From Erysipelotrichaceae bacterium (GTDB lineage: Bacteria; Bacillota_I; Bacilli_A; Erysipelotrichales; Erysipelotrichaceae), in NCBI GenBank assembly GCA_017533785.1, contig JAFWII010000001.1, positions 1 to 64,000 of the forward strand: a stretch of 64,000 bases of DNA. The letters are read 5' to 3'. The position numbers were made by a program, and so were the translations under genes. Shown one piece after another: positions 1,933 to 56,036 of this stretch. Numbering within the stretch: the first letter of the stretch is position 1; the number at the start of each line of letters is the position of its first letter. The notes under the pieces are model-generated. The model made no database searches and was not told the origin of the DNA. It saw only the letters and a program-made list of their open reading frames with translations.

Positions 1933-3084
1933 TTACATATTGCTGGCTTTCAGCAGCGCCCGCTCGACGATTGAATCCATGTTGTAGTATTTGTATTCGG
2001 CAAGCCGTCCGAGAAGGATCAGATTGGGATAAGACTTGGCCATCTCGACATAATCCTTATACATTTTCTGATTATCGTCTGTGAAGACCGGATAGTATGG
2101 AATGTTGCCCTTTTCCGCGTCTTTGTTGTACGGAAGCGGATACTCTGTATGGATGTATGTAATGTCTGCAGGCTCATTTTCCATGAAATGCTTGTATTCC
2201 GTTATACGGGTAAAGGGATACTGGGATTCTTTGCCCGGGTAGTTTTCTGTGGCTGCTTTCTGGAAGGTTCCGTTATTCTTTTCCAAAACCAGATCGAGCG
2301 AACGATATGGTAGTTCTCCCAGATAATAATCAAACAGTTCGTCCAGAGCACCAGTATAGACCAGGGAGCCTTTAAACGGCTCGCCGTTGAATTTGATGCC
2401 TTCCGCATCCAGACTTATCAGTTCCTTGGCATTGACGCCGAAGCGGATTTCAATATTGTTGCTCTGGAGCATTTTTTTGAATAACGCAGTATAGCCGCGC
2501 TTGGGCATGACCTGATACTTGTCATCAAAATAACCGTCTTTATAGGACAGGCGGACCGGGACACGGGCGGTTACGCCGCTGTCTATTTCCTCAGCTGTGA
2601 GCCCCCACTGTTTCATGGTGTAGTACTTGAAGACGTTTTCGAAAACAAAATCTGCAAGCGCGTTTACATCGGGATTTCTGCTTTTACGAAGCTCCATGAT
2701 CGGGACACGGGCATTACGGCCGTATTCCTTGATCAGCGCCGTCTTCAAGCGTTCCGCCTGATCTGCATGGAAACAGTCATCGATCGAAGCAAAATTGAAC
2801 GGGATCGGAACCGTTTTGTTCTGGATGTGTCCCAAAACACAGTGCCGGTAATCGTACCATTCAGTAAACTGGCTCAGATACTCGAAGACCTTGTCGCTGT
2901 TTGTGTGAAATATATGGGGTCCGTATTTATGGATCAGTATGCCGTCCTGTTCGTAATCATATGCATTTCCGCCAACATGATTGCGGTTTTCGAGAATCAG
3001 GACTTTTTTATTTCTTGCTGAAAGCCTTTCGGCGACAACGGAACCGGCAAAACCGGCGCCGACAACGATGACGTCATAGCGCAT
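1933..3084 (-). CDS. glf: UDP-galactopyranose mutase
   Basis: A cytosolic flavoenzyme that interconverts UDP-galactopyranose and UDP-galactofuranose, giving the donor for galactofuranose residues in surface polymers. The 383 residues match the usual family length. The N-terminus has the FAD-binding glycine motif (VVGAGFAGSVVAERL) followed by the family signatures NHVGGNAYD and GPHIFHT, and the C-terminus has the typical LGRLAEYKYYNMD. The start is supported by GGAG 8 bases upstream. An 82-base gap separates it from the preceding GT4 gene, and a TATACT-like -10 at 3118-3123 could give it its own promoter. A group II intron lies just beyond its stop codon without damaging it. Confidence 0.97.
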   Translation of the reverse strand: MRYDVIVVGAGFAGSVVAERLSARNKKVLILENRNHVGGNAYDYEQDGILIHKYGPHIFHTNSDKVFEYLSQFTEWYDYRHCVLGHIQNKTVPIPFNFASIDDCFHADQAERLKTALIKEYGRNARVPIMELRKSRNPDVNALADFVFENVFKYYTMKQWGLTAEEIDSGVTARVPVRLSYKDGYFDDKYQVMPKRGYTALFKKMLQSNNIEIRFGVNAKELISLDAEGIKFNGEPFKGSLVYTGALDELFDYYLGELPYRSLDLVLEKNNGTFQKAATENYPGKESQYPFTRITEYKHFMENEPADITYIHTEYPLPYNKDAEKGNIPYYPVFTDDNQKMYKDYVEMAKSYPNLILLGRLAEYKYYNMDSIVERALLKASNM

Positions 3085-24820: not shown

Positions 24821-25790
24821 GGCCGGCCTCCTTTCTGGAACGATATTTATAATATAATTTTAGCATTGTCTTATTCAGATATACAGAATCGTCGCGAGCT
24901 TCCTTGATGGGATACTTCTTTGGATTTGAACCGAAATACTTCTTTTTGAATGCAAAAATATCATCAATGAATTCGTTAACAAAATCGCTGTCAGTCAGTT
25001 TGACTGCTTTGCGCAGGGACTGGATCATGTTGATGGAAAGCAGATAATTCAGTTCTTCCTTATACTGTTCGAACATGTTGTTCTTTTTGAAACCGCTGAC
25101 AACGATCTCGCCGATTTTGAGGATATCCCGCACCTTTCTGTCGATCTGCCGGGTAATGTTCCCTTTGCGGTCTACGATATAACGATACAGGGGTTCGTTC
25201 AGGTAACTGATCTTATTTGCGAAAGCAAGCAGGAAGGGTGTTGTTCCGAGATCCTGATGACGAAGACCAAACGGGTATTCAAGTCCGTGCTCGGTAAACA
25301 GAGATGTTCTGTACAGTTTGTTCCAAGCTGCATTCGGTGTATAAGCCAGAAGCTCTGGTTTGTCTTTCAGAGAATAGCAGCCGCTGAACGCGAGCGGAAT
25401 CACTTCGGTGCTGTTGTTTTCGGAATAGACCTGAGTATATGAGAATACTACAAGGTCGCTCCCGTCATCTTTGATCGTTTTCAGGGATTTTTCGCACATA
25501 TCCGGTTCGCACTGATCATCCCCGTCTATGAACATAACAAAAGGTGCAGTAACATATTTCATCCCGAAATTGCGGGCATCACTAAGCCCGCCGTTCTTCT
25601 TCAATAGCGGAACAAAACGAGTGTCTTCCGCTGCATATCTGTCAATGATTGCCTGGGAACCGTCTGTGGAACCATCATTTACGCACAGGATACGAATATC
25701 TTTGAAAGACTGCTCTTTGAGAGAACGCAGACAGGCATCCACGCAGTTTTCAACATTATAAATCGGAACTACTACATCGATCTCAGCCAT
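24813..25790 (-). CDS. Glycosyltransferase family 2
   Basis: A 325-residue GT-A glycosyltransferase, starting at the methionine just before the first strand (IDVVVPIYNVENCV). It has NDGSTDGSQ, the GGLSDARNFG loop and a variant metal site DGDD in place of the usual DSDD. It sits second in the wzx-wzy operon, overlapping the flippase stop by eight bases and the epimerase start by eight bases. The donor is unknown. Confidence 0.92.
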   Translation of the reverse strand: MAEIDVVVPIYNVENCVDACLRSLKEQSFKDIRILCVNDGSTDGSQAIIDRYAAEDTRFVPLLKKNGGLSDARNFGMKYVTAPFVMFIDGDDQCEPDMCEKSLKTIKDDGSDLVVFSYTQVYSENNSTEVIPLAFSGCYSLKDKPELLAYTPNAAWNKLYRTSLFTEHGLEYPFGLRHQDLGTTPFLLAFANKISYLNEPLYRYIVDRKGNITRQIDRKVRDILKIGEIVVSGFKKNNMFEQYKEELNYLLSINMIQSLRKAVKLTDSDFVNEFIDDIFAFKKKYFGSNPKKYPIKEARDDSVYLNKTMLKLYYKYRSRKEAGHG

Positions 25791-27237
25791 TGTTTCTCCT
25801 CAGCAGTTTGCCAAGCAAACTGGTAAATAATTCTTCCTTGAGCAGGATAAGTGTTAACGCGTAGATAAGAACACCGCCGCCTGCTTGAACGACATTTGTC
25901 AGGATCCGTGCACCCATAACATTTCCGATCAGGAAAACATATACGCTCATTAAGGCACCGGCCAGCAAGTAGATCAGGATGCTCCGGTCAACAGAAAGCT
26001 TCAGGTCATTGCGGACAAAGTTATACTGCACCAATGTAACGGTCAATTCTGCTATACAGGATGCAACCGCAGCACCGTATCCGAGGAACCTTGGTATCAG
26101 GAAAAGATTCAAGAAGAAATTGACGACAGCACCTGAAATAACGGAGGTCGTATACTCTTTTGTTCTTCCGGTCGGTACCAGAAACTGCGTTCCGAAAACA
26201 TTCGACAGCGCAATGAAAAACAGGATCGGTGAGGAGATCTGAACAAGCCGGATCATTTCTGGGACGACATTCGGTGACCTTCTGAGATACCATGGGAAAA
26301 AAGCCGGAGAAACGAAGACCATCGCAAGTACCATCGGGATGCTGAGCGCACAGGCGATCTTGAAAGTTGTTCCAATATAGCCGATCGCCTTTTCTCTGCC
26401 GCCTTCATCGTTATAGAAGACATTTGTTACGCGTGGCAACATTACCGCGCCGATAGAAGTAATGAACTGCAGGAACATTTTTACAAAGCTTTGTGCAGTC
26501 TTGTACAGGTTCAGACTTTGCATATTGCCGCCGATAAAACCGAGCATCGACTGATCCAGCAGAGTATAAACATTAATTGCAATGGTTGGAATAAACAGTG
26601 CGACAGTCCCTCTGAAATGATTCCTATAGGCGTCCTTAAGTGAGAACGGGACCCTTGTAATATACTTTTTCAGCCGGCTGAACATTGCCAGTGAGCCAAG
26701 CAGCTCGGTACCGGTTATGATAACGGTATAAATGACCAGATCTTCCGGGCTCTTAATAAAGAGCAGAAGCAAGCCGACAGAACAGATACGGACCAATGTG
26801 TTCCGGATACTGGCGATCTTGAAGTCTTCAATACCGTAATAGAACCAACTGATGTCGATCGCTGAAGCAAGGATATTAATGAAAAAGATCCAATAGATAA
26901 GCGTGTTTTCTCTGACGGCTACTAGGATATACAGAGCATAGAACGCCGAAACGATGACCATGTTGGCAAACTGCATGAAAAGGATCTCGAAAAATGTGCG
27001 CGAAAGATTCTCTTTATCGTTGCGTACTTTTGCGATTTGCCGGTTGCCATATACGTTTACGCCAAGAACACCGAAAAGAATGAACCAGGACGAGATGTTG
27101 CCTGCGAAGTCCGAGATACCGATTGTCGCTGCGCCTATAGTTGCCTGCAGGAACGGAACGGTGATCACAGGCAGGATCACACGTACGAGCTGGTACAGAA
27201 TGCTATATATGTAGTTTATTAACAGTTTTTTGTCCAT
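25783..27237 (-). CDS. Oligosaccharide flippase (Wzx/MOP family)
   Basis: A 484-residue protein with twelve to fourteen predicted helices and the usual Wzx start (NYIYSILYQLVRVILPVITV) with a conserved early proline and charged residues. It would flip undecaprenyl-linked repeat units across the membrane for the Wzy-like protein encoded downstream. The ATG at 27237 is chosen because a TATAAT ends seven bases upstream and the extra N-terminal codons of the longer frame would be untranscribed and polar. It is the first gene of the wzx-wzy operon. A second, only distantly similar flippase is at 54552-56036. Confidence 0.92.
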   Translation of the reverse strand: MDKKLLINYIYSILYQLVRVILPVITVPFLQATIGAATIGISDFAGNISSWFILFGVLGVNVYGNRQIAKVRNDKENLSRTFFEILFMQFANMVIVSAFYALYILVAVRENTLIYWIFFINILASAIDISWFYYGIEDFKIASIRNTLVRICSVGLLLLFIKSPEDLVIYTVIITGTELLGSLAMFSRLKKYITRVPFSLKDAYRNHFRGTVALFIPTIAINVYTLLDQSMLGFIGGNMQSLNLYKTAQSFVKMFLQFITSIGAVMLPRVTNVFYNDEGGREKAIGYIGTTFKIACALSIPMVLAMVFVSPAFFPWYLRRSPNVVPEMIRLVQISSPILFFIALSNVFGTQFLVPTGRTKEYTTSVISGAVVNFFLNLFLIPRFLGYGAAVASCIAELTVTLVQYNFVRNDLKLSVDRSILIYLLAGALMSVYVFLIGNVMGARILTNVVQAGGGVLIYALTLILLKEELFTSLLGKLLRRNNG

Positions 27238-27244
27238 CCTTACA

Positions 27245-27250
27245 ATTATA
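27245..27250 (-). promoter_or_regulatory. Putative -10 box giving a leaderless mRNA (flippase operon)
   Basis: A perfect TATAAT on the minus strand ends seven bases before the ATG at 27237, so the predicted start of transcription coincides with the start codon. No usable ribosome binding site precedes it (AAGG abuts the ATG). The -35 is poor (TTCCAT at 18 bases). Confidence 0.5.
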
Positions 27251-27393
27251 CGATATTTTGTTATCTCAATGGAATAACAGAGAAATCCCAAAGCAATCCG
27301 TCAAGATGTAATCGATCGTTTATGCTGCTTGTGTTATAGATCTTCGTGTGTCGGGAAGCATTAATCTGTTATATTGAAAACGGAGAATCGAAA

Positions 27394-29675: not shown

Positions 29676-30656
29676 CTATTTTTTTATTACTTTATATGCA
29701 TTCCAGAACAATTTGTAAACAGGCAAGCCGAGACGCAACATGTAAAATGCTGCTCTGTCCCGCTTTGGAGTTTTCGGATCTCTTAATACAGACTGCGCGT
29801 TTGCCTTGATGAACGAGACAATGCCGCTCTTAGTATCTTCATTGCCTTTAACGTCGAGCAATTGATTCAATGTGCTGAATCTGGCATATACCCGTCTTCT
29901 GAGGACCGCTTCTTTCAGATCCGGGTATCTGCTGGCCACATAATCAGCCATTTGATCCGTCATCTCCAAAAGATCGAGTTTTTTGGGGTTGTATTGACCG
30001 GTGACTATTGAGTTTCTGCGAATTACATAATGGTATTTAGATTCAAATCCACACGATATTGCTTCGTTCTGGTCAAAAAGAAGGTATGTTGTGCCGATAT
30101 CTTCAAAAAGCTTGCCTTCCGGATAACGGACGTCTTTGAACAGATCCCTATGATACATTTTTGCATAAGCGCATGTATCGACAAGATCGTGGTAACACAT
30201 CATTTCAATCGCTTCTTTGGCGGAAAGAATTCTTTTTGTGTGGTCGCCGTTATCGACAACACGACCTGAATCTTCAAAGTCATTGTAAATTGAGCAGATC
30301 GACAGTTTATATGTTTGGTTATTTAGTAATTCAAAAAGATAGGAGACATAATCGCTCTCGACATAATCGTCGGAATCTATGAATGTTAAGTATTCCCCGT
30401 TGCAACGATCAATACCGTAGTTTCTGGCGCTGGAAAGACCACCGTTTTTCTTGTGGTAAACAGTTATTCTTTTATCGGTCTCGGCATATCTTTCTGCAAT
30501 CGAACCGGAACCGTCTGTACTTCCGTCATCAACCAGTATGATCTCAAGGTTGTGGTAGGTTTGTGACACAACGGAATCGAGGCATCGTGCGAGATATTTC
30601 TCGACATTATAGATCGGTAAAATGACCGAAACTAGCGGCAGACCATTGTTATCCAT
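29676..30656 (-). CDS. Glycosyltransferase family 2
   Basis: A 326-residue GT-A glycosyltransferase with SVILPIYNVEKYL, VDDGSTDGS, the GGLSSARNYG loop and DSDDYVESD metal site. It overlaps the SDR gene by eight bases and precedes the TagB-like gene by seven, so it probably prepares the linkage or decorates the polyol-phosphate polymer. The C-terminus is basic and hydrophobic (YKLFWNAYKVIKK), suggesting membrane contact. Confidence 0.92.
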   Translation of the reverse strand: MDNNGLPLVSVILPIYNVEKYLARCLDSVVSQTYHNLEIILVDDGSTDGSGSIAERYAETDKRITVYHKKNGGLSSARNYGIDRCNGEYLTFIDSDDYVESDYVSYLFELLNNQTYKLSICSIYNDFEDSGRVVDNGDHTKRILSAKEAIEMMCYHDLVDTCAYAKMYHRDLFKDVRYPEGKLFEDIGTTYLLFDQNEAISCGFESKYHYVIRRNSIVTGQYNPKKLDLLEMTDQMADYVASRYPDLKEAVLRRRVYARFSTLNQLLDVKGNEDTKSGIVSFIKANAQSVLRDPKTPKRDRAAFYMLRLGLPVYKLFWNAYKVIKK

Positions 30657-31698
30657 TTTTTTCCAGTTCGAAAGAACGGATCATTCTTTCATACATATCT
30701 TGAAGGCTGTGTTTTGGTGTCCATCCCAAAGATTTAAGTTTAGAAACATCCATTTTTGAATACAGAACGGGAGCATATCCGAACTTGCTTGCGTCTTGAA
30801 TATCGAAAACAACGTTAATACCGCCGCACGCGATATCGTCTGCGACTGTTTTCGCCATTTCATGAATACTGCAATAGGAAGAATCGTTTGCAGTGTTATA
30901 CGCTTCCCCGGGCTTTCCGTGGAACATGACGGCCAATATGGCTCTGACTGCATCGGCGGTATATAAATACATCCGTTTTGTTTCACCTTTGGTGTGAAGA
31001 ACTATGTCTTTTTTCTCGATGGCGCATCTTCCAAACTGGACAAATACACGATTGTCTTCATAGGCTACACCGGGTCCGATCGTTTGCGTTAATCGGATCA
31101 CTTTTGCGGGAACGCCGTATTCGCTTGCATATGAAGCGCAAAGCGATTCGCACAATCTCTTGCTTTCCGGATAACAGGAACGAACTTCCATTGTGTCTAA
31201 AGCGCAACTGTGCGTCTCTGAAAGAAGCGATTCTGCTTTCTGGTTTCCATAGACTTCCATTGTCGACAGGAAGATCAAGTTTCTAACCTCTTTTTCTTTT
31301 GCGATTTCGAGAAGATTCTTCGTTCCTGAGTACGCTGTTTCGATGATCTCTACGGGATTAGTAATAAATGATTTGCTGTCTGTGATACTGGCTGCATGGA
31401 TGATGTGGTCAAAGTGAACTCCATTGCCGTGAAAATCGCGAATGTCACAGTTTATGAAATGCAGGTTCGGATCTTGAAGAAAATCCGAAAATGTGATTTT
31501 AGCTTTGTTTTTGTTTCTGACTAAAGCCCATACTTGCGGAGGATTTGAACTTCTTTCGGCGTATTTCAAAAAGAGACTGCTGATATTCTTTCCTATCAGT
31601 CCTGTCGCGCCAGTTATAAGGATATTAGTTCCGTCGAAACGCGAGAGATCAAACTCCTCAAGAATCTTAAGAACATCTTCTTCAATCACCCTGTTCAT
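30649..31698 (-). CDS. Extended-SDR NAD(P)-dependent epimerase/dehydratase-like protein
   Basis: A 349-residue extended short-chain dehydrogenase. The nucleotide site is ILITGATGLIGKNI at about residues 26-39, preceded by an unusual 25-residue N-terminal extension. LSTMEVYG and a catalytic YPESKRLCE follow. It lies directly downstream of a TarI-like cytidylyltransferase (three-base gap). Known CDP-ribitol synthases pair a cytidylyltransferase with a reductase (TarJ, or the SDR half of Bcs1/Acs1), but those are different dehydrogenase types, so here the SDR may act on a CDP-linked sugar or an unrelated nucleotide sugar. Function is unresolved. Confidence 0.82.
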   Translation of the reverse strand: MNRVIEEDVLKILEEFDLSRFDGTNILITGATGLIGKNISSLFLKYAERSSNPPQVWALVRNKNKAKITFSDFLQDPNLHFINCDIRDFHGNGVHFDHIIHAASITDSKSFITNPVEIIETAYSGTKNLLEIAKEKEVRNLIFLSTMEVYGNQKAESLLSETHSCALDTMEVRSCYPESKRLCESLCASYASEYGVPAKVIRLTQTIGPGVAYEDNRVFVQFGRCAIEKKDIVLHTKGETKRMYLYTADAVRAILAVMFHGKPGEAYNTANDSSYCSIHEMAKTVADDIACGGINVVFDIQDASKFGYAPVLYSKMDVSKLKSLGWTPKHSLQDMYERMIRSFELEKNG

Positions 31699-31701
31699 AT
31701 G

Positions 31702-32439
31702 CTATTCCTTTATCTCTGACGGGCTATAAAGCTGTTCGTTTTCTTTTGTCTCGATCATCGCTCTCATGAGGTAGAAGTCTTCCGGTGTTGTTATCTTAAT
31801 GTTTTGGGAAGGGCCATCTACGAGGTAAAGATCGTACCCATAATGCTTCATCATAGTGCAGGAATCGATAAAAGAAGTCCTGCCCTCTTTTATAGCCTGA
31901 TTATGTGCGTTCAAAACATCGTTGAGCCGAAAACTCTGCGGCGCCTTAGCAATTCTTGATTGTTTACGGTCTGGAACCGTTGTAATCCTGTTCGCGTCAT
32001 CGATCACAATAATAGTCTCGGTGACTTTTGAGGTAGTTATGGCGGAACCGTATTCTTTTACGCTCTCGATATTTGCTTCCAGCAGATCCGTTGTGATCAG
32101 TGGACGCACACCGTCGTGGATCAGCACGATCGCTTCGTTATCTTTCGCGACTTCTTTAGCGGCTAAGAGCCCGTTATAAATCGAAAGCTGGCCGGTCTCG
32201 CCGCCCTTAACGATTTTTTGAACTTTTGTTATACGGTATTTCTCAACCAGTTTGTTGAGATAATCGATCCATTGTTCGACGCAGGCAATAACGATTGCGT
32301 CGATCTCATCACAGTTTTGGAATACTTCCAACGTGTGAATGATAATCGGTTTTCCGTATACTTCTAAAAACTGTTTTGGGCGGTCCTTGCTATGCATTCT
32401 TTTGCCGACGCCACCGGCAAAAATAACTCCGATATTCAT
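31702..32439 (-). CDS. TarI/IspD-family cytidylyltransferase
   Basis: A 245-residue CTP-dependent nucleotidyltransferase. It has GGVGKRM, the RPKQFLEVYGKPII stretch typical of TarI (ribitol-5-phosphate) rather than IspD, the HDGVRPL metal-binding segment and KAPQSFRL. It would make a CDP-polyol, such as CDP-ribitol, for the two TagB-like transferases in the same operon. It follows the ABC exporter by four bases with an AGGT site. A paralogue lies at 53733-54452 in a different setting. TarI-type is the best guess; the alcohol substrate is not proven. Confidence 0.88.
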   Translation of the reverse strand: MNIGVIFAGGVGKRMHSKDRPKQFLEVYGKPIIIHTLEVFQNCDEIDAIVIACVEQWIDYLNKLVEKYRITKVQKIVKGGETGQLSIYNGLLAAKEVAKDNEAIVLIHDGVRPLITTDLLEANIESVKEYGSAITTSKVTETIIVIDDANRITTVPDRKQSRIAKAPQSFRLNDVLNAHNQAIKEGRTSFIDSCTMMKHYGYDLYLVDGPSQNIKITTPEDFYLMRAMIETKENEQLYSPSEIKE

Positions 32440-36590: not shown

Positions 36591-37397
36591 CTAAAAGCTT
36601 TCCGTATACTTTTTATGCAATATCTTTGCGCTTAGGAAGCCGATGATTTTCTTCGTCCACTTCACTTTGCCGATATATAGGTACGGCACTTCCAGCATCT
36701 CTTCTTTTTTGATATAGCCGTTTTCCAGTTCGTGATGCAGCCAAACGTTGAACAAGCGCTCACTGATCCGCCCAATATATCTCTTCTCGAAATCGCTCAT
36801 CGAAGAGGTGTCGACTTTCTTTTCAAGCGAAGATAAGACAGGGAAAAGCCACTCGCAGTATGAGTTCACCAGGTCTCTCGGCATGATAAACATGTTGAAG
36901 ATGTAGACTGATCTTTGATGCATGACCTTTTCAAAAGAAGGCAAATACTCCGGGCTCAGCTCCTGGAGCGTTTCTCTGGTGCGGGCAAGATGCTCTTCGC
37001 TGAATGTATGTGAATAGTGGTCATAGACCGTTTCGATAAAGTAATGGCGCTTTTTGGGCACTATGACTTTATGGTCCTTCAGCAGAGTCTCGCACTCCTG
37101 CCCGGTCAGAACCGATCGCAGGGCTCCGTTCTTTTTCTGAAAAGCTCTGCTTTTCAGGGTGAAATAACGGCGGTAGTGTGACAGGCCAAGATAATCGGAA
37201 TCCAGGTTCTTCCAGCACCAGTAGAGTCCGGTGAGTTCGCAGAACAGGGCGTTTTTGGCGGAGATATTGTCTCCCTCGTCGTCTCTCTGGAAGCCTATGC
37301 TCTCCTTTCCGGAAGCGCCGACCTGCATCGGAAGGTACAGATCGTCCTCCGGGACAGCACAGCTCTTATGGCAGGCGATCAGGATCCTGCAGTTCAT
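36591..37397 (-). CDS. DUF4422 family protein (probable glycosyltransferase)
   Basis: A 268-residue protein of the DUF4422 family, which is common in capsule loci and thought to be GT-like. The signatures ILIACHKSC near the start, YWCWKNLDSDYLGLSHYRRYF at about residues 58-78 and an HQRSVYIFNMFIMPRD segment are characteristic. No membrane segment is seen. It overlaps the phosphoglycosyltransferase gene as ATGA, so it probably adds the second sugar to the lipid-linked primer. Confidence 0.88.
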   Translation of the reverse strand: MNCRILIACHKSCAVPEDDLYLPMQVGASGKESIGFQRDDEGDNISAKNALFCELTGLYWCWKNLDSDYLGLSHYRRYFTLKSRAFQKKNGALRSVLTGQECETLLKDHKVIVPKKRHYFIETVYDHYSHTFSEEHLARTRETLQELSPEYLPSFEKVMHQRSVYIFNMFIMPRDLVNSYCEWLFPVLSSLEKKVDTSSMSDFEKRYIGRISERLFNVWLHHELENGYIKKEEMLEVPYLYIGKVKWTKKIIGFLSAKILHKKYTESF

Positions 37398-39478
37398 GAT
37401 TTCACGCCTTCTTTCTTCAGGACGGAAGCGATCGTCTTGAAGAAGATCTTTATATCAAAGAATAAGGATTGATGTTCTACATAATAGAGTTCCATATCCT
37501 GCCGTTTATGATCTCTGTATTCCGCGTTGTTGCGCGCGTATGCCTGCCAGTAACCGGTCAGACCGGGATCTACTGACAGCAGTTTTGCAACTTCATCGCC
37601 ACTGTAGTTTTTGAAGAGCTCATCTTTCATGATCGGCCGGGGGCCAACGATCGACATCTGCCCCGCGAGGATATTGATGATCTGCGGAAGCTCGTCCAGA
37701 CTGGTCTTTCTCAGAAAGCTCCCGATTCCGGTAATGCGGGGATCATTTTCGATCTTGAATTCCTGGCGGTACTGTTCAAGCTGTTCTTCGTTCAGCAGGT
37801 CTTCCAGCTTACCGGCATCTTTCCGCATGCTTCTGAATTTGTAGACTTTGATCTTTTTGCCGTTTTTGCCGATTCGCTCGTGTGTGTAGAACGGCGTGCC
37901 TCCGTCGTCGGAAATGATGATAACGATCAGAATGAGGAACAGAGGAGAGAGAAGCAGCAGTCCGGTGGCCGAAAGAACGAAGTCGATCACCCGTTTAAAG
38001 GCAACATAAAGAAGGCCGGACTTTCCGTCATATAACTCTTTTTTATATTCTATCGGCGTCTGGAATTCCTGAATAGATTTGCAGATGCCGATCTCTTCGG
38101 ACATGTGAACATCCCCATGTATGCGCAAGGAACGGAAGGTCAGAAAACGCAGTACGCAGAAAATAAGAAGTGACAGATCCTTGAGCACGTTCCAGTTCTC
38201 GATGTAGGTCTGTTCGTCTTCCAATGCTTTTTCCGGATCTTTTTCAACTGCCCAGTTGCCAATGATACCGGGTTTGACTGTCAGAAGGCTTCTTTCCTTC
38301 TCGTGCATCTCAAGATAGCGCGGAAGGCTCGGTGCTTTCGGGCCGACAAAAGACATTTCTCCGGCAAGCACATTCAGGATCTCAGGCATGCCGTCAAGAT
38401 GAAGCGCACAGAGGATCCTGCCGACGGCGGTGTATGGACTGAGCCCGTTTTCAATCCGTTTTTCCGCATCGGTGCGGAAAAGGCGGAAACGGTACTGATA
38501 GAAACGCCGGTTGTTGCGGCCGACCCGAACGCGTTTGACGAGGACGGGACCTGGCGATTCGGCGGCAGTGAAGATCCTGACCACCAGCCAGAGAACACAG
38601 TATAAAGGGAATACAAGCAGTCCTAAAAGAATGTCAAGCAAACGCTTGAACAGTTTCTGCCGTATGGACATCGGCTGCAGATCCTTATAGGTAACGATCG
38701 CCAGATCGCCGATATTATCCAGACTTTTGAAAGACGCGTCGATATCGAATTCCGGCACTTGTACGTGGGCTGTCTTCCCGTGCATCTTGAAATCCTTCAG
38801 AAGACTTGCGACCCGTTCGCTGTTGACCATGTCGGGAACGATGATCACACTGTCGATCTCATTGAGCAGCTGATCGGCAAGCAGACGGTTATATCCTTTG
38901 ACGAGCGGAATGCCGTCGATATCTTTTGCGGATGCGCGGGTATTGAGCGTTCCGACCTTTTCGACTTTGAAACGCCAGTCGACAGAATCGTTGATCCGGT
39001 GTATATAGCCGGCTGCCTTTGCGGGATCGCAGATCAGCAGTACTTTTTCCGGTTTGATCAGCGAGTTCTTACTGGAAAGCAGGCGCTTCTTGAAGAATGA
39101 ACGCAGGAAGAAATCGACGATCACCATAACGGTAAAATAGATCAGCTCAAACAACCGCGAATAGATCCCGCTGATCTTGAAAAAGTTCAGATAAATGATG
39201 ACGAGCGTCATCACAAGGGCGCTGATCTTGACGGAGCTGATAAATTCCTGGTAATTGTTTCGCAGCAGAAAACGGTCATCCTTATAGATGACGAGAAAAT
39301 TAACGATAAAATACGCGATCAGCACGACAAGCAGGAAGTTGTTGTAGTCGCTGAGTTTGCCCGCGAAGTCATGAATAAAATTGCTCCGGATCAGATAAGA
39401 GAGGACATACGCGATAAAAAACGAAGTAATATCCACCGCATTTACGATATACAGGGTGTATCGTTTCAAATTGTTCAT
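37394..39478 (-). CDS. Double phosphoglycosyltransferase; first domain lacks catalytic Glu
   Basis: A 694-residue initiating enzyme that transfers a sugar-phosphate from a UDP-sugar to undecaprenyl phosphate. It has four N-terminal helices (residues 10-130), a Rossmann-like linker (140-265), and then two bacterial sugar transferase domains. The second (about 500-690) is intact, with KFRSM, the catalytic dyad D595-E596 in SLDELPQ, and SIVGPRP. The first (about 270-470) keeps the fold but reads LDGMPE, so D362 is followed by G363 in place of Glu, and KFRSM has become RFRLF. It is probably a non-catalytic or regulatory copy. It leads the teichoic-type operon; a TAAAAT at 39488-39493 lies nine bases before the ATG. 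Confidence 0.93.
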   Translation of the reverse strand: MNNLKRYTLYIVNAVDITSFFIAYVLSYLIRSNFIHDFAGKLSDYNNFLLVVLIAYFIVNFLVIYKDDRFLLRNNYQEFISSVKISALVMTLVIIYLNFFKISGIYSRLFELIYFTVMVIVDFFLRSFFKKRLLSSKNSLIKPEKVLLICDPAKAAGYIHRINDSVDWRFKVEKVGTLNTRASAKDIDGIPLVKGYNRLLADQLLNEIDSVIIVPDMVNSERVASLLKDFKMHGKTAHVQVPEFDIDASFKSLDNIGDLAIVTYKDLQPMSIRQKLFKRLLDILLGLLVFPLYCVLWLVVRIFTAAESPGPVLVKRVRVGRNNRRFYQYRFRLFRTDAEKRIENGLSPYTAVGRILCALHLDGMPEILNVLAGEMSFVGPKAPSLPRYLEMHEKERSLLTVKPGIIGNWAVEKDPEKALEDEQTYIENWNVLKDLSLLIFCVLRFLTFRSLRIHGDVHMSEEIGICKSIQEFQTPIEYKKELYDGKSGLLYVAFKRVIDFVLSATGLLLLSPLFLILIVIIISDDGGTPFYTHERIGKNGKKIKVYKFRSMRKDAGKLEDLLNEEQLEQYRQEFKIENDPRITGIGSFLRKTSLDELPQIINILAGQMSIVGPRPIMKDELFKNYSGDEVAKLLSVDPGLTGYWQAYARNNAEYRDHKRQDMELYYVEHQSLFFDIKIFFKTIASVLKKEGVKS

Positions 39479-39602: not shown

Positions 39603-40385
39603 ATGAGTATCCGCGGTTTGATGCAGGAACTGAAGAAGAATTCGTTTCTATTCCAGCAGCTGGTGAGCAGAGACTTTAAACAGAAGTACAAGCGTACCGC
39701 CCTGGGAATGCTTTGGAGCATTTTGTCTCCTCTTTTGACACTGTTCATCATGCGGATCGTTTTCCTGCAGTTTTTCGGCAGAAATACTCCTCACTATACG
39801 ACCTATCTGTTTTCAGGAATTATCGTGATGTCCTTCTACAAAGAAGCGACCAAGGCGGGAATGTCCTGTCTTGTCGATAATTCGGCTGTGATCACCAAGA
39901 TCAATCTGCCGAAATACCTGTTCGTATGTTCAAGAAACGTTTCCGCGCTGGTAAACTTCTTCCTAACATTCGGTGTGTATCTGATCTTCTGCGTCATTGA
40001 CTATATCCAGTTTCATGTCGGTTTCTTTGCGCTTATCTATCCAATGGTCACGCTGACACTGATGAATGTCGGAATCGGAATGATTCTTTCCTGCATGTAT
40101 ATCTTTTTCCGGGATACGACGTATCTTTATGACGTGTTTCTGACGCTGCTGAACTATCTGTCAGCGATCTTTTACACGGTCGAGCAGTTCCCGCAGAAAA
40201 TGCAGCGCCTTTTTCTGATGAATCCTGTCTACGCGCATATCAAATACTTCCGCCTTATCGTTATCGAGAACAGCGTTCCGTCACCCGCCTTTCACGGACT
40301 GCTGCTGTTCTATGCGCTGTTCTTCCTGACGATCGGATTCCTTATGTATAAGAGATATAACCACGAGTTTATCTACTATCTGTAA
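39603..40385 (+). CDS. ABC-2 type polysaccharide/teichoic acid export permease
   Basis: A 260-residue Wzm/TagG-type permease with an amphipathic N-terminal segment (LVSRDFKQKYKRTALGMLWSIL, here abbreviated by its ends: LVSRDFKQKY and GMLWSIL) and six transmembrane helices. It exports completed lipid-linked polymer together with the ATPase encoded 13 bases downstream. The start codon follows a TATAAT by six bases without a ribosome binding site. The gene is divergent from the phosphoglycosyltransferase at 37394-39478, so the two units probably serve the same polymer. Confidence 0.95.
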   Translation: MSIRGLMQELKKNSFLFQQLVSRDFKQKYKRTALGMLWSILSPLLTLFIMRIVFLQFFGRNTPHYTTYLFSGIIVMSFYKEATKAGMSCLVDNSAVITKINLPKYLFVCSRNVSALVNFFLTFGVYLIFCVIDYIQFHVGFFALIYPMVTLTLMNVGIGMILSCMYIFFRDTTYLYDVFLTLLNYLSAIFYTVEQFPQKMQRLFLMNPVYAHIKYFRLIVIENSVPSPAFHGLLLFYALFFLTIGFLMYKRYNHEFIYYL

Positions 40386-40398
40386 TCTCCGGAGGAAT

Positions 40399-41175
40399 AT
40401 GTCTGTAATTGAATGTAAAAACGTAAGTATTCGCTATATAACAGGGGATCTGAAAGCGATCGGACTGAAAGAATATGTTATGCGGAAGCTTACCGGCCGT
40501 TATCATGTGAGAGAATTCTGGGCGGACAAAAACGTCACCTTTTCTCTTGAAAAAGGGGACATGCTCGGTATTATCGGTTCCAACGGCGCCGGGAAAAGCA
40601 CTTTGCTCAAAGCGATCACCGGCATCATGCGTCCGGCTGAAGGCACGATCCGGGTCGAGGGACAGATCGCTGCTCTGCTGGAGCTGGCCAGCGGGTTCGA
40701 TGAAGATCTGACTCTGAAGGAAAACACATATCTGCGCGGAGCGATGCTCGGATATACAAAAGCCTTCCTGGATGAAAAATACGACGAGATCATTTCCTTT
40801 GCGGAACTTGAAGAATTTGAGGAATACACTTTCAAACAGCTGTCAAGCGGAATGAAATCCCGGCTTGCCTTTTCCATTGCCTGTCTTGTTGATCCGGATA
40901 TTCTGATACTGGATGAGGTCCTCAGCGTCGGAGACGGCGCCTTCCGTAAAAAGAGCAGGCAGAGAATGAGAGAGATCCTCAGCGGCGGCGTCACCGGTAT
41001 CCTTGTTTCGCATTCGATCGAACAGATCAGGGAAATGTGCAATAAGGTCCTCTGGCTTGATCACGGTCATCAGATCGCTTTTTCGGAGGATGTTTCAGCC
41101 GTTTGCGACGCTTATGAGCAGTTTCTCAGGACAAAGAAGATCCCGAAGGAATGGATCAAGGGGGAACGAAAATGA
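40399..41175 (+). CDS. ABC transporter ATPase (Wzt/TagH-type, no carbohydrate-binding domain)
   Basis: A 258-residue ATPase partner of the preceding permease. It has Walker A GSNGAGKST, the Q-loop/TLKENTYLRGAMLGY stretch of polysaccharide exporters, signature LSSGMKSRL, Walker B ILILDEVLSVGD and the switch His in VSHS. It ends soon after the switch region, so the C-terminal carbohydrate-binding domain that reads chain-end modifications in Wzt of E. coli O8/O9a type is missing. GGAGGA precedes the ATG. The CheR-like gene overlaps its stop. Confidence 0.95.
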   Translation: MSVIECKNVSIRYITGDLKAIGLKEYVMRKLTGRYHVREFWADKNVTFSLEKGDMLGIIGSNGAGKSTLLKAITGIMRPAEGTIRVEGQIAALLELASGFDEDLTLKENTYLRGAMLGYTKAFLDEKYDEIISFAELEEFEEYTFKQLSSGMKSRLAFSIACLVDPDILILDEVLSVGDGAFRKKSRQRMREILSGGVTGILVSHSIEQIREMCNKVLWLDHGHQIAFSEDVSAVCDAYEQFLRTKKIPKEWIKGERK

Positions 41176-42008
41176 CCGCAATGCTGCAATCGGTGAAGAA
41201 AGCAGTAAAAACAGTCATCAGCCTGTTCAGCGAAGACTGGCATTATTACAAAAGAATCATCGAACTGGTCCCGGAACTGTCAAAATATAAGGAATACCAG
41301 ATCGAGTTCGTAAAGGAAACGGCACAGAAGCAAAACTGCCGCAGCGTCAGAGAATACTATGAGCTTCTTCGCCGCGATGCGGCGGAGCTTGCCCGGTTCA
41401 AGCAGAATCTGACGTATGTGGGTTCTCATTTTTTCCGCGGCGAAGACTGGCAGTTTTTCTCGGAGAGATGTTTGTCTTCATTTAAGGGAGCGGACAGAGT
41501 AAGGATCTGGTGTGCAGCCTGTTCGTCCGGTCAGGAAGTCTACAGCGTCATCGCCGCACTTTCTGAATATATTCCTCTGGAAAAGATCGATGTCCTCGCC
41601 AGCGACTACAACGATGAGATGATCGCAAAATGCGAAGCGGGCACCTATTTCAATATGCATCTAAAAGAGATCCCGGAAAAGTATCACCCTCTCTTGGAAA
41701 AAAACAAGACGAAATTCACGTTTAATGAGGAAGTCAGAAAGCGGATCGCAACAAAAAACGTCAATCTTCTGACTGACGTGTATCCTGATAGTATTGACAT
41801 TATCTTATGCCGAAACGTTCTGAAATTCTTTTCTCCGGATGTCATTGAGGAATGTCACGGAAAACTGTGCAGAGCGCTGAAGGAGGGCGGATTCCTTTTT
41901 CTTTCCAACGATGACAACAGCAAGAAGGTAGAGTTTATAAAGGATCCGGAAAAACTGGGAATGATCCAGCTGGAGGACCGCTGTATCTATCAGAAGAGAT
42001 CTGTCTGA
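41172..42008 (+). CDS. CheR-family SAM methyltransferase
   Basis: A 278-residue protein with the CheR layout: an N-terminal helical region to about residue 75, SHFFR at 85-89 (CheR has TxFFR), SAM motif I at about 112-125 (IWCAACSSGQEVYS), the SDYNDEMI acidic segment after strand 2, and ILCRNVLKFF with GGFLFLSNDD. CheR normally methylates glutamates of chemoreceptors, but no chemotaxis gene is nearby. The ATGA overlap with the ABC ATPase and a GGGGGAA site argue for co-translation with the exporter. Methylation of the polymer end or of a protein in the export complex is possible. Start 41172 is preferred over the upstream ATG at 41151. Confidence 0.9.
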   Translation: MTAMLQSVKKAVKTVISLFSEDWHYYKRIIELVPELSKYKEYQIEFVKETAQKQNCRSVREYYELLRRDAAELARFKQNLTYVGSHFFRGEDWQFFSERCLSSFKGADRVRIWCAACSSGQEVYSVIAALSEYIPLEKIDVLASDYNDEMIAKCEAGTYFNMHLKEIPEKYHPLLEKNKTKFTFNEEVRKRIATKNVNLLTDVYPDSIDIILCRNVLKFFSPDVIEECHGKLCRALKEGGFLFLSNDDNSKKVEFIKDPEKLGMIQLEDRCIYQKRSV

Positions 42009-50138: not shown

Positions 50139-51073
50139 CGACGAAGAAGAAGCGCAAGCCTTTGCAGCTTCTTTTCATTTGTGTCGGTCATATACAAAAC
50201 GTTGTAGTACCTGCTGAAATAGCGGAATGCTTTCCATTTGTTTTTTCCGGACAGTCTGTACCGGAAGTATTCTGCGCTTTCTTCGAGCACTCTGCGGTCT
50301 TCCGGCCGCATTTCTTTTTTGAGCAGTTCCTCGCAGAGTATGATGCTGTAGCGGTAGGAAGCCATGGTGTTCGTGACATTCAGGAAGTTCTGCAGTTTCC
50401 GGAAGAAAGTCATTTTTTCGTTTGTCGTCACGTTCGTCTGATGCTGGCGGTATTCCAGGATCACCTTATCCGAATAAATGATACCGTTGTTTACGGCTGC
50501 CGCGAGGCCAAGCCAGCGGTCATGATAGACAACGCTTTCCGGCATCGGCAGCGCGAACGGGATCAGCCGCCTGCGGAAGAGGATCGCCGAACCCTGAACG
50601 AAATTGGCATACGCCAGTCTTCTCAGATACTCTTCCCTGGTGAAAGGAAGACTTTTGATATCGAGTACATCCCGCATCGTTCTGCCCATAGAATTGCCGC
50701 TGTCGTTGATCAGTCTGGAATTTGCGCAGGCAAGGTCGTTGTCTCCGATCATCGTCATGAGCGTTTCGAGATGGTCTGCGGTCCAGATGTCGTCCTGGTC
50801 TGCCAGCGCGATATATTCTGCCCGACAGAGGGAGATCGCTTTTTCAAAGTTTCTGATAAAGCCGAGGTTCTCCGCATTCCTGCAGACTCTGACCCTGGAG
50901 TCCTTTTTCGAATACTCTTCGGCGATCTGAAAAGTGCCGTCGCCGGAGCAGTCGTCGACTATGATCAGTTCAAACGATCCGTAAGTCTGCGCGAGGATCG
51001 ATTCGATCTGTTCGCGAATGAACTTTTCACCGTTAAAAGCCGCCATCGCGATGCTGATCAGCTGTTCACTCAT
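50135..51073 (-). CDS. Glycosyltransferase family 2 (rhamnosyltransferase-like)
   Basis: A 312-residue GT-A enzyme: ISIAMAAFNGEKFI start, VDDCSGDGT nucleotide site, NLGFIRNFEKAI loop, ADQDDIW metal site and the VVYHDRWLGLAA segment. The AxFNGE start with DQDD and HDRW is typical of the subgroup that includes rhamnosyl- and galactofuranosyltransferases, so a dTDP-rhamnose donor is plausible but not proven. It is last in the cytidylyltransferase-TPP-LicD operon, overlapping licD by eight bases. Confidence 0.9.
   Translation of the reverse strand: MSEQLISIAMAAFNGEKFIREQIESILAQTYGSFELIIVDDCSGDGTFQIAEEYSKKDSRVRVCRNAENLGFIRNFEKAISLCRAEYIALADQDDIWTADHLETLMTMIGDNDLACANSRLINDSGNSMGRTMRDVLDIKSLPFTREEYLRRLAYANFVQGSAILFRRRLIPFALPMPESVVYHDRWLGLAAAVNNGIIYSDKVILEYRQHQTNVTTNEKMTFFRKLQNFLNVTNTMASYRYSIILCEELLKKEMRPEDRRVLEESAEYFRYRLSGKNKWKAFRYFSRYYNVLYMTDTNEKKLQRLALLLRR
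50145..50175 (+). terminator. Terminator of the rmlD-rmlC operon, inside opposing gene
   Basis: A long hairpin just after the rmlC stop: an outer stem (AAGAAGC 50147-50153 with GCTTCTT 50167-50173), one bulged A, an inner stem GCAA/TTGC and a four-base loop, followed by TTCATTT. It lies inside the antisense 3' coding end of the GT2 at 50135-51073. The minus-strand read-out is also T-rich, so it might act both ways. Confidence 0.75.
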
Positions 51074-51905
51074 CCTGACCCTCAGCGCTTTCTTTGTAGT
51101 AGACCTTATAGGAATGGTGCGTTTTCTGTGCGGCGTCTTTCGGCGGCGTCATATACGTGTCGCCATAGAACTTCGACAGGATCTTTGCATGGTCCTTCGG
51201 GATCCGGAATGCAAGGTCTTCAAATGGAACGGTGATGAATTCTCTGAACCATTCGCTTTCCAGGATCTCTTTTTCGCCGCGGTTGGCGGCAACGATGAAT
51301 CCGCAGTATTTCGTATAATCCTTATCCTCGTATTTGCGGCAGGTCTCATCCAGTTCCCAGATGAGTTTTTTCAGTCTGCCTTTCGGGGAAAGGGCTTTGA
51401 TGATGAAGATGATGACGTTCCGGTACCAGGATCTCTCCCTGATGATCTTCCATTTCTGCACGTCGATCTTTCTCCGCAGAGCGATCGTCTTTTTAAACAG
51501 GTCTCTCGCCTCTTCGGGCGTGTCGCCGACGAAATCCAGCGGGAAGACGTCGAGAAAAACGCCGATCTTGATGTCGGAATCGACCGCTTCCTGCATCACG
51601 GTTTTGTTGTGGATGATCTTGGCGAACGGGATGTAGAGATCCTCGTTCTGAAGGATCGAGATCAGTTCATAGTCCGGATTCGTCCGTTCCTCGTTATAGA
51701 TACGGATCAGCTTTTCGTAATCTTTTCTGGGCAGTCCGACATCGATATCGTCGTCCCAGGGAATGAAGCCCCTATGCCGCACGGCGCCGAGCATGGAACC
51801 GCCGGTCAGAAAATAATGAAGATCGTGCGCATTGCAGAACGCGTCAAAATCCTTCATCATCTCCAGCATCATCTGTTTCTGTTCAGCAAGTGTGATCTCT
51901 CTCAT
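51066..51905 (-). CDS. LicD-family phospho-ligand transferase
   Basis: A 279-residue member of the LicD family, nucleotidyltransferase-fold enzymes that transfer phosphocholine, or other phospho-alcohols, from a CDP-activated donor to a glycan. The active-site signature GGSMLGAVRHRGFIPWDDDIDVG is at about residues 36-58 (Gly-Gly-Ser and Asp-Asp-Asp-Ile-Asp). No choline kinase or LicC-type gene is in view. Instead a TarI-like cytidylyltransferase and a TPP enzyme precede it, so the ligand may be something other than choline. It lies 17 bases after the TPP gene. Confidence 0.92.
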   Translation of the reverse strand: MREITLAEQKQMMLEMMKDFDAFCNAHDLHYFLTGGSMLGAVRHRGFIPWDDDIDVGLPRKDYEKLIRIYNEERTNPDYELISILQNEDLYIPFAKIIHNKTVMQEAVDSDIKIGVFLDVFPLDFVGDTPEEARDLFKKTIALRRKIDVQKWKIIRERSWYRNVIIFIIKALSPKGRLKKLIWELDETCRKYEDKDYTKYCGFIVAANRGEKEILESEWFREFITVPFEDLAFRIPKDHAKILSKFYGDTYMTPPKDAAQKTHHSYKVYYKESAEGQDE

Positions 51906-54551: not shown

Positions 54552-56036
54552 ATGGAAAAGGAAAACAGGAAATCAGTCGCCGGAAACGTTACCTACCATC
54601 TGCTGTTCCGTCTGGTGATGACGCTCTCCCCGCTGATCGTGGCACCGCATCTGGCGAGAGAACTCGGAGCATCGAATCTGGGGATCTTTTCCTTTGCCCT
54701 TGCCAACGCGGAGTATTTCATCCTGTTTGCCAGAATGGGAATCGACCAGCACGGCACCCGCACGCTGGCGGAAAACATCAACGACAAGGACAGGTTCTCC
54801 CAGATCTTCTGGGATCTTTATGCCGTCCAGTTTCTGATGTCGCTGATGTGCATTGCCCTTTATCTGGTCTACACCTTCGTATTTATCAGCGAGAACCGCA
54901 CGATCACGCTGATCCTGGTATTGATGCTTCTGAGCACGATGCTGGATATCACCTGGCTGTTCTACGGTCTTGAGGAATTCAAAATGCTTTCCCTGCGCAG
55001 CACTTTCCTGAAAGTTCTCGAAGTGATCTGCGTTATCACGCTGGTCCGTAAAGATGGTCCGGCTCTTCTGATCTATGCTCTGATCATCGGGACAGAGACC
55101 CTTTTGAATTCGCTGGTCCTGCTGCCGCTGGCGCGCAGGTACATCGTATTCAAGAAACCGGATCCGAATCGTATCCGAGCTCACATCCGCCCGCTGATGC
55201 TGCTGTTCGTACCGCAGCTGGCAGTCACCGTTTTCCACAATATGGACAAGACGATGCTGGGACTTATGGCGGCGTATGAGGAAGGCGGCTACTACTATAA
55301 CGCCAACAAGCTGATCAATGTGCCGGCGACCGTCACGACCGGATTGTCGGCAGTCTTTCTGCCCAGAGCAGTTACTGTCTTCGCTGATGAAGATAAAGAG
55401 AAACGTGACCATTTCCTTAACCGCTCTTTTGAGTTTTCAGCTTTTCTGAGCGCCGGTATGACATTCGGTATCATCGGCTGCGCCAAAGATTTCATCCCGG
55501 TCTTTTTCGGCCTTGATTTCATGCCGTGTATCCTCCTGACCTATCTCTTCGCGCCGGTCCTGATCTTCAAAACGGTGTCGAATCTTTACCGCGCGGAGTA
55601 TATGATCCCCAAACACCAGGACAGCCTCTATATCTATGCGGCAGCAGGTGCTGTCGTCGTCAATCTCATCCTGAACTTCCTGCTGATCCCGCGGTTCGGC
55701 GCTTCCGGTGCTGCAGTTGCGACGGCGGTAGCCGAAGCCGTGCTGATGCTGATCCAGTTCAGGGGATACGGCGGAGACGCCCAGGCTTTCCGCTGGCTGA
55801 AGGCCAATCTTATCTATATCTTTTTCGGAGCGCTGATGTTCGGATTTATGAATCTGCTTTCCCGTCTCGGCATCGGAGTGATTATGCGTATCGTGACCGA
55901 GATCCTGGCCGGAGGCTGTTTCTATATGCTGCTGTGCCTCCTTTACTGGGTCTTTTTCAGCCGGGATAAGGATGTTCTGACGCTGATAAGGCACGAGATC
56001 TCGAAGTTTAGCGGAAAGCAGCAGGGGCAGGGCTGA
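54552..56036 (+). CDS. Oligosaccharide flippase (Wzx/MOP family), second copy
   Basis: A 494-residue protein with about fourteen helices: N-terminal VTYHLLFRLVMTLSPLIVAPH, a YYYNANKLINVPATVTT segment and NLILNFLLIPRFGASGAAVAT near the C-terminus, all typical of Wzx. It leads the rightmost operon and would flip the repeat unit built by the following GT genes. It differs clearly from the flippase at 25783-27237, so two separate lipid-linked oligosaccharides are likely. Confidence 0.93.
   Translation: MEKENRKSVAGNVTYHLLFRLVMTLSPLIVAPHLARELGASNLGIFSFALANAEYFILFARMGIDQHGTRTLAENINDKDRFSQIFWDLYAVQFLMSLMCIALYLVYTFVFISENRTITLILVLMLLSTMLDITWLFYGLEEFKMLSLRSTFLKVLEVICVITLVRKDGPALLIYALIIGTETLLNSLVLLPLARRYIVFKKPDPNRIRAHIRPLMLLFVPQLAVTVFHNMDKTMLGLMAAYEEGGYYYNANKLINVPATVTTGLSAVFLPRAVTVFADEDKEKRDHFLNRSFEFSAFLSAGMTFGIIGCAKDFIPVFFGLDFMPCILLTYLFAPVLIFKTVSNLYRAEYMIPKHQDSLYIYAAAGAVVVNLILNFLLIPRFGASGAAVATAVAEAVLMLIQFRGYGGDAQAFRWLKANLIYIFFGALMFGFMNLLSRLGIGVIMRIVTEILAGGCFYMLLCLLYWVFFSRDKDVLTLIRHEISKFSGKQQGQG

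Follow-up and report, generated by a model that had tools for sequence, protein, structure and literature searches.

The gene on the minus strand at 37394-39478 of the window, the whole stretch of 64,000 nucleotides of Erysipelotrichaceae DNA that was analysed, raises the question of why a single protein carries two monotopic phosphoglycosyl transferase (PGT; Bac_transf, PF02397) domains, the first of which (D1) has a degenerate catalytic motif and the second (D2) an intact one. The gene encodes 694 aa from an ATG, and its stop codon (37394-37396) is included in the coordinates. The sequence-only reading of this DNA had placed the gene correctly, without stating the strand, and had described two sugar-transferase domains within one chain. 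Scored singly, D1 and D2 reach 118 and 208 bits, respectively, both above the Pfam cut-off of 27. The residues that it quoted are also correct: D595-E596 within SLDELPQ of D2, and, in D1, G363 in place of Glu and R330-F-R332-L-F in place of the KFRSM box.

Pfam assigned to the 694-aa protein a weak CoA_binding_3 domain (PF13727, 28.7 bits) and two Bac_transf stretches. The protein has the composition of a large PGT of the WbaP type, namely a four-TMH bundle, the DUF domain PF13727 and then a catalytic domain, with an extra degenerate PGT domain intervening. All parts lie on the minus strand. The N-terminal TM bundle (aa 1-135; 39074-39478) has model helices at 3-34, 42-62, 75-99 and 108-135 and aligns with that of WbaP. 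The Rossmann-like DUF domain (aa 140-268; 38675-39061) was delimited by Pfam, the model and structure alignment, and is predicted to end in a beta-hairpin (strands aa 250-256 and 259-265). D1 (aa 275-455; 38114-38656) follows, then a linker (aa 456-488; 38015-38113) with a predicted helix at 456-473, and finally D2 (aa 489-692; 37403-38014). The general EPS_sugtrans model TIGR03025 is passed (420 vs a cut-off of 295.55), and TIGR03022, the WbaP galactose-phosphotransferase subfamily, is not reached (387 bits with two stretches counted; curated cut-off 403). The protein is the sole Bac_transf protein in the assembly (1.8 Mb, 88% complete). Two polytopic-type PGTs (PF00953) are also encoded there, so primers are available for other polymers.

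The state of both domains was read from an alignment of 24 D1, 24 D2, 36 small-PGT and 43 large-PGT domains. No D1 domain (0/24) has the catalytic Glu (PglC E94), which all 103 other domains possess (24/24 D2 and 79/79 ordinary small and large PGTs); its position in D1 is taken by Gly in 17, Arg in 4, Asp in 2 and Lys in 1. Since this loss, confined to D1, recurs in another 23 non-redundant tandem proteins whose assemblies are independent, it is not due to chance or sequencing error. The nucleophile Asp (PglC D93) is Ala in three D1 domains and Ser in one (L041/L046/L047 and L050). L041, L046 and L047 form a Lachnospiraceae branch in which D1 reads HLAR, both dyad residues being gone. Because the Asp is kept in 20/24, including D362 here, this lone sequence would be insufficient to prove the death of D1; in the alignment it is the family that proves it.

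The loss extends beyond the dyad. The Gln of DELPQ and that of WQ are mostly gone from D1. The equivalents of PglC Arg88, Arg111 and Arg145, which are needed for substrate orientation or Und-P binding (PMC12802240; PMC10519829), are degenerate in D1 and fixed in D2, and the GPRP Arg is replaced in D1 by Lys, His, Tyr or another residue. D1 is shorter by about 16 residues in the stretch from the KFR box to the dyad, a region that in WbaP contains a mobile helix-turn-helix close to the active site (PMC10942596). D1 retains the Asp (D168) that stabilises the reentrant helix. In place of the lost catalytic motif D1 has a signature of its own, RFR and H-x-x-x-x-P. The equivalent of PglC K59 is Arg in 24/24 D1 domains, as is that of R61 (R330-F-R332; 38483-38491), and the residue two before the Asp, which is Ser or Arg in nearly all other domains, is His in 24/24 (H360-L-D362-G363-M-P365 in place of S-L-D-E-L-P; 38384-38401). 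D2, by contrast, has all catalytic residues: D595 and E596 in the motif S593-L-D595-E596-L-P-Q599 (37682-37702), and K547, R590 and R614 as the equivalents of Lys59, Arg88 and Arg111, each present in 24/24. The claim that the first domain is catalytically degenerate thus holds for the family, where relatives were checked for an intact D1 and none was found among the 24. The reentrant-helix proline, a motif described as strictly conserved (PMC12802240), was considered as an additional sign of death, D1 having D-x8-P and D2 D-x12-P, and was rejected: among the intact PGT domains of L054, L058, L068 and L109-L131, D-x8-P occurs in several small PGTs, and the proline of D-x12-P is missing from many large PGTs of Lachnospiraceae.

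It might be argued that D1 is still an enzyme, with an altered chemistry that uses the retained Asp, since D362 is widely kept and the HLDG signature is conserved rather than random. However, the four D1 domains with Ala or Ser at this position are retained nevertheless, the Glu has given way to any of four residues, and the site no longer has its basic and Gln residues, so that we regard this explanation as very unlikely. A ligand-sensing role deserves more weight. D1 may be a pseudoenzyme that binds a uridine nucleotide or UDP-sugar, not Und-P, through a pocket formed by RFR and His and thereby sets the activity of D2. The invariance of the two Arg and the new His is consistent with this, as is the drift of the D1 positions corresponding to Arg88 and Arg145, which in PglC bind Und-P (PMC10519829). 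WbaP is inhibited by UMP, for which an extra site in its DUF domain has been proposed (PMC10942596). On the other hand, the conserved RFR and His could serve folding alone, and the variable GPRP residue counts against this reading. We consider ligand sensing possible, although doubtful.

As the sequence-only reading had proposed, the structure was predicted, and the prediction indicates that D1 keeps the PGT fold. An AlphaFold2 model built with 20 family members had a mean pLDDT of 80 and a pTM of 0.62, and D1 is among its best-modelled parts. Of solved structures, PglC fits modelled D1 (aa 270-457; Z 18.4, 2.3 A, 177 residues). Residues 4-447 of the model superpose on WbaP as TM bundle, DUF domain and D1 in the WbaP order (Z 19.9), with a whole-chain rmsd of 18.9 A, indicating that the domain orientation in the model differs or is uncertain. 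At a pTM of 0.62, the placement of D2 against D1 is not to be trusted. WbaP dimerises via the beta-hairpin that follows its DUF domain (PMC10942596). D1 therefore has the Bac_transf profile and, as modelled, the PGT fold, but not the Asp-Glu dyad, and is to be regarded as a homologue, not an enzyme, of the PGT superfamily.

How widespread is this arrangement? In 244 genomes of the same family, Erysipelotrichaceae, we found tandem relatives that have both PGT domains (L004-L014), a further two (L016 and L017) whose N-terminal part is shortened, and some fragments at contig edges. A scan with a D1 profile of one genome per species (84,980 species) gave 19 tandem loci, some of them in genomes already found, from Erysipelotrichaceae (including Catenisphaera adipataccumulans), Lachnospiraceae (Bilifractor porci) and other Clostridia (Baileyella intestinalis). 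By tblastn, Lachnospira eligens ATCC 27750 has a tandem protein with 38% identity over the full length, EUBELI_RS14090 (WP_012740591.1), which is annotated only as 'sugar transferase' and is encoded directly after CpsB, Wzz and CpsD genes. Tandem PGTs are thus a conserved family of 24 non-redundant proteins from Erysipelotrichaceae, Lachnospiraceae and other Clostridia, cultured Lachnospira eligens, Bilifractor, Catenisphaera and Baileyella among them. Elsewhere they are rare: a tandem PGT was found in 2/348 Lachnospiraceae genomes, one being the genome on which the search was centred. No further one came from the class (395 genomes), the phylum (392) or the order of Baileyella (297), and viral contigs gave no relative. 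Nor was a stand-alone D1 homologue found beside a small PGT; the small PGTs closest to D2 (L018, L069 and L071) have no degenerate partner adjacent. Two candidates were rejected as tandems. The match in Staphylococcus massiliensis (L052) is an ordinary intact PGT (MDELPQ), and L104/L136 is a PGT fused to other transferase-like parts. The latter protein, from Baileyella intestinalis (L136:5505-7550; 682 aa), has two N-terminal parts that look glycosyltransferase-like by eye and an intact PGT domain.

If D1 no longer catalyses, it could be a decaying remnant with no selected role. D1 branches are longer than those of D2, indicating faster evolution, and L016 and L017 (L137), from two same-family genomes, have lost most of the TM bundle along with the DUF domain and the C-terminal part of D1, whereas D2 and the DUF4422 neighbour described below are intact. 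This persistence of D2 makes it possible that D1 is partly dispensable. By the Nei-Gojobori method, however, the dN/dS of D1 in full-length pairs was 0.11 (L043/L044), 0.10 (L041/L047) and 0.21 (L046/L047, where synonymous sites are near saturation); the corresponding values for D2 were 0.09, 0.05 and 0.10. D1 is therefore less constrained than D2 and yet far from neutral, and the comparison of coding sequences places it under strong purifying selection, with a dN/dS of about 0.1-0.2. A looser value of 0.22 was obtained for L016/L017, where the N-terminal part is lost. Across 12 diverse D1 domains 17 columns are invariant, D1 has the full fold in the model, and it has been retained in two Bacillota classes. 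It is most improbable that such a domain is mere debris. The view of the sequence-only reading that D1 is a pseudoenzyme is strengthened by the loss of the Glu throughout and of the Asp in 4/24, the kept fold and the purifying selection. With a homologous fold, catalytic residues lost across orthologues and maintenance by selection, D1 is a pseudoenzyme as judged from alignments and model, and both its death and its retention are well supported.

In the trees, D1 forms one clade (100/100) and D2 another (99/99); in a tree of 127 rows D1 is again one clade and D2 one group except for a fragment at a contig edge. The tandem and the death of D1 thus fit a single origin. In the free tree, the neighbours of D1 are large-PGT domains and those of D2 are small PGTs, a pattern that would result if a small PGT had been appended C-terminally to an older large one. 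A single clade of D1 and D2 was not rejected (AU p 0.16), nor were two other placements, and the trees are compatible with D1 either arising from a duplication of D2 or being the original large-PGT domain.

The next gene (36591-37397, minus strand), whose ATG overlaps the PGT stop codon, encodes a DUF4422 protein (PF14393; a GT111-type glycosyltransferase) and is a conserved neighbour of tandem PGTs. A DUF4422 gene lies directly downstream in 15 of the 24 tandem loci with room for it, compared with 3/76 ordinary PGTs (Fisher p 3e-9) or 2/15 ordinary PGTs of the same family (p 0.003), p values that are optimistic because the loci share ancestry. In L041, L046 and L047 the tandem gene is near glyA-like genes, not DUF4422. 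The sole UDP-galactopyranose mutase of the assembly, the source of UDP-Galf, is encoded in the same locus at 1936-3084. In Klebsiella WbbM, a DUF4422 domain occurs in the GT111 galactofuranosyltransferase part (PMC12269835). The linkage and the mutase together point to a likely pathway in which D2 would make an Und-PP-sugar and the DUF4422 protein would add the next sugar, perhaps Galf.

The window holds further genes of note. An ABC-2 transporter pair is encoded at 39603-41172, divergently from the PGT gene. There are genes for Wzx-like proteins at two sites, 25786-27291 and 54552-56033. A CheR-type methyltransferase gene (PF01739, 116 bits; 41151-42005, plus strand) overlaps the end of the ABC transporter ATPase gene, and a polysaccharide locus is an odd site for an enzyme of a chemotaxis family. 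At the edge of the locus is a group II intron reverse transcriptase/maturase (RVT_1, GIIM; 540-1838, plus strand). At 30649-32439 the gene for an IspD-type cytidylyltransferase precedes that for an epimerase/dehydratase, an arrangement reminiscent of TarI/TarJ-type pairs. Together with a LicD gene at 51069-51905, these genes suggest phosphate-containing decorations of the polysaccharide.

Taken together, the protein is a WbaP/CpsE-type large monotopic PGT with two PGT domains in tandem. We think it probable that D1, the original catalytic domain, is now a pseudoenzyme scaffold or allosteric adapter and that priming has passed to D2. D2 would transfer a sugar-1-phosphate from a UDP-sugar to undecaprenyl phosphate, priming the polysaccharide made by the 60-kb locus. 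D1 appears to have the same reentrant-helix anchor as the catalytic domain of WbaP and, like it, to follow the TM bundle and the DUF domain, but has neither the dyad Glu nor most substrate-binding side chains. It would have died once, before the family diversified, and have been kept by selection since. Its most likely role is that of a structural or allosteric adapter in the catalytic-domain seat of the DUF/TM dimer, where it may hold or tune the adjacent D2 and perhaps present the product to the next transferase (DUF4422/GT111). We infer in this way the activity of D2, the inactivity of D1, the scaffold or allosteric role and the docking of the next enzyme. Against the adapter, the invariant residues of D1 (R318, N322, R330, R332, H360 and P365) lie partly around the former active site and may fit a retained ligand site equally well. 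One tentative idea is that the dead domain senses a uridine ligand or the state of the DUF domain within the chain, gates the live domain and so controls the entry of undecaprenyl phosphate into the capsule pathway. Just as tentatively, D1 could then be the first case of a pseudoenzyme domain within the monotopic PGT superfamily, with such an in-chain sensing or gating role.

Undecaprenyl phosphate is scarce, and its division between the cell wall and surface polysaccharides is decided by priming PGTs. The regulation of large PGTs is a largely open field. In a natural tandem with a selected non-catalytic PGT domain, what the PGT fold does in catalysis is set apart from its structural or regulatory roles. 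Such a tandem lends itself to direct tests with proteins of cultured gut commensals. That pseudoenzymes occur next to live paralogues is well known. The sequence-only reading knew of no described example of this arrangement, and we likewise found no description of a pseudo-PGT domain in the monotopic PGT superfamily in the open-access papers searched.

Among known systems, the closest in architecture is WbaP of Salmonella enterica (PDB 8t53), a large monotopic PGT that has the TM bundle, the DUF domain with its C-terminal beta-hairpin and a Bac_transf domain in common with the present protein. WbaP has a single, active PGT domain, whereas here a degenerate domain occupies that seat and an intact one is added C-terminally. 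PglC of Campylobacter concisus (PDB 8g1n, 8e37), a small monotopic PGT, resembles modelled D1 in fold and D2 in sequence (phmmer E 3e-23); unlike D1, it is a stand-alone enzyme with the full dyad. A functional analogy may be drawn to EpsZ/EpsW of Myxococcus xanthus (PMC12802240), in which a large PGT depends on a non-catalytic partner. That partner is a separate response regulator; the corresponding element here would be part of the PGT chain itself, a degenerate PGT domain. AdoMetDC and its prozyme in T. brucei (PMC5201418) likewise place a dead paralogue beside a live one, the dead one relieving autoinhibition. They belong to an unrelated enzyme family and are separate chains, so the likeness is one of analogy only.
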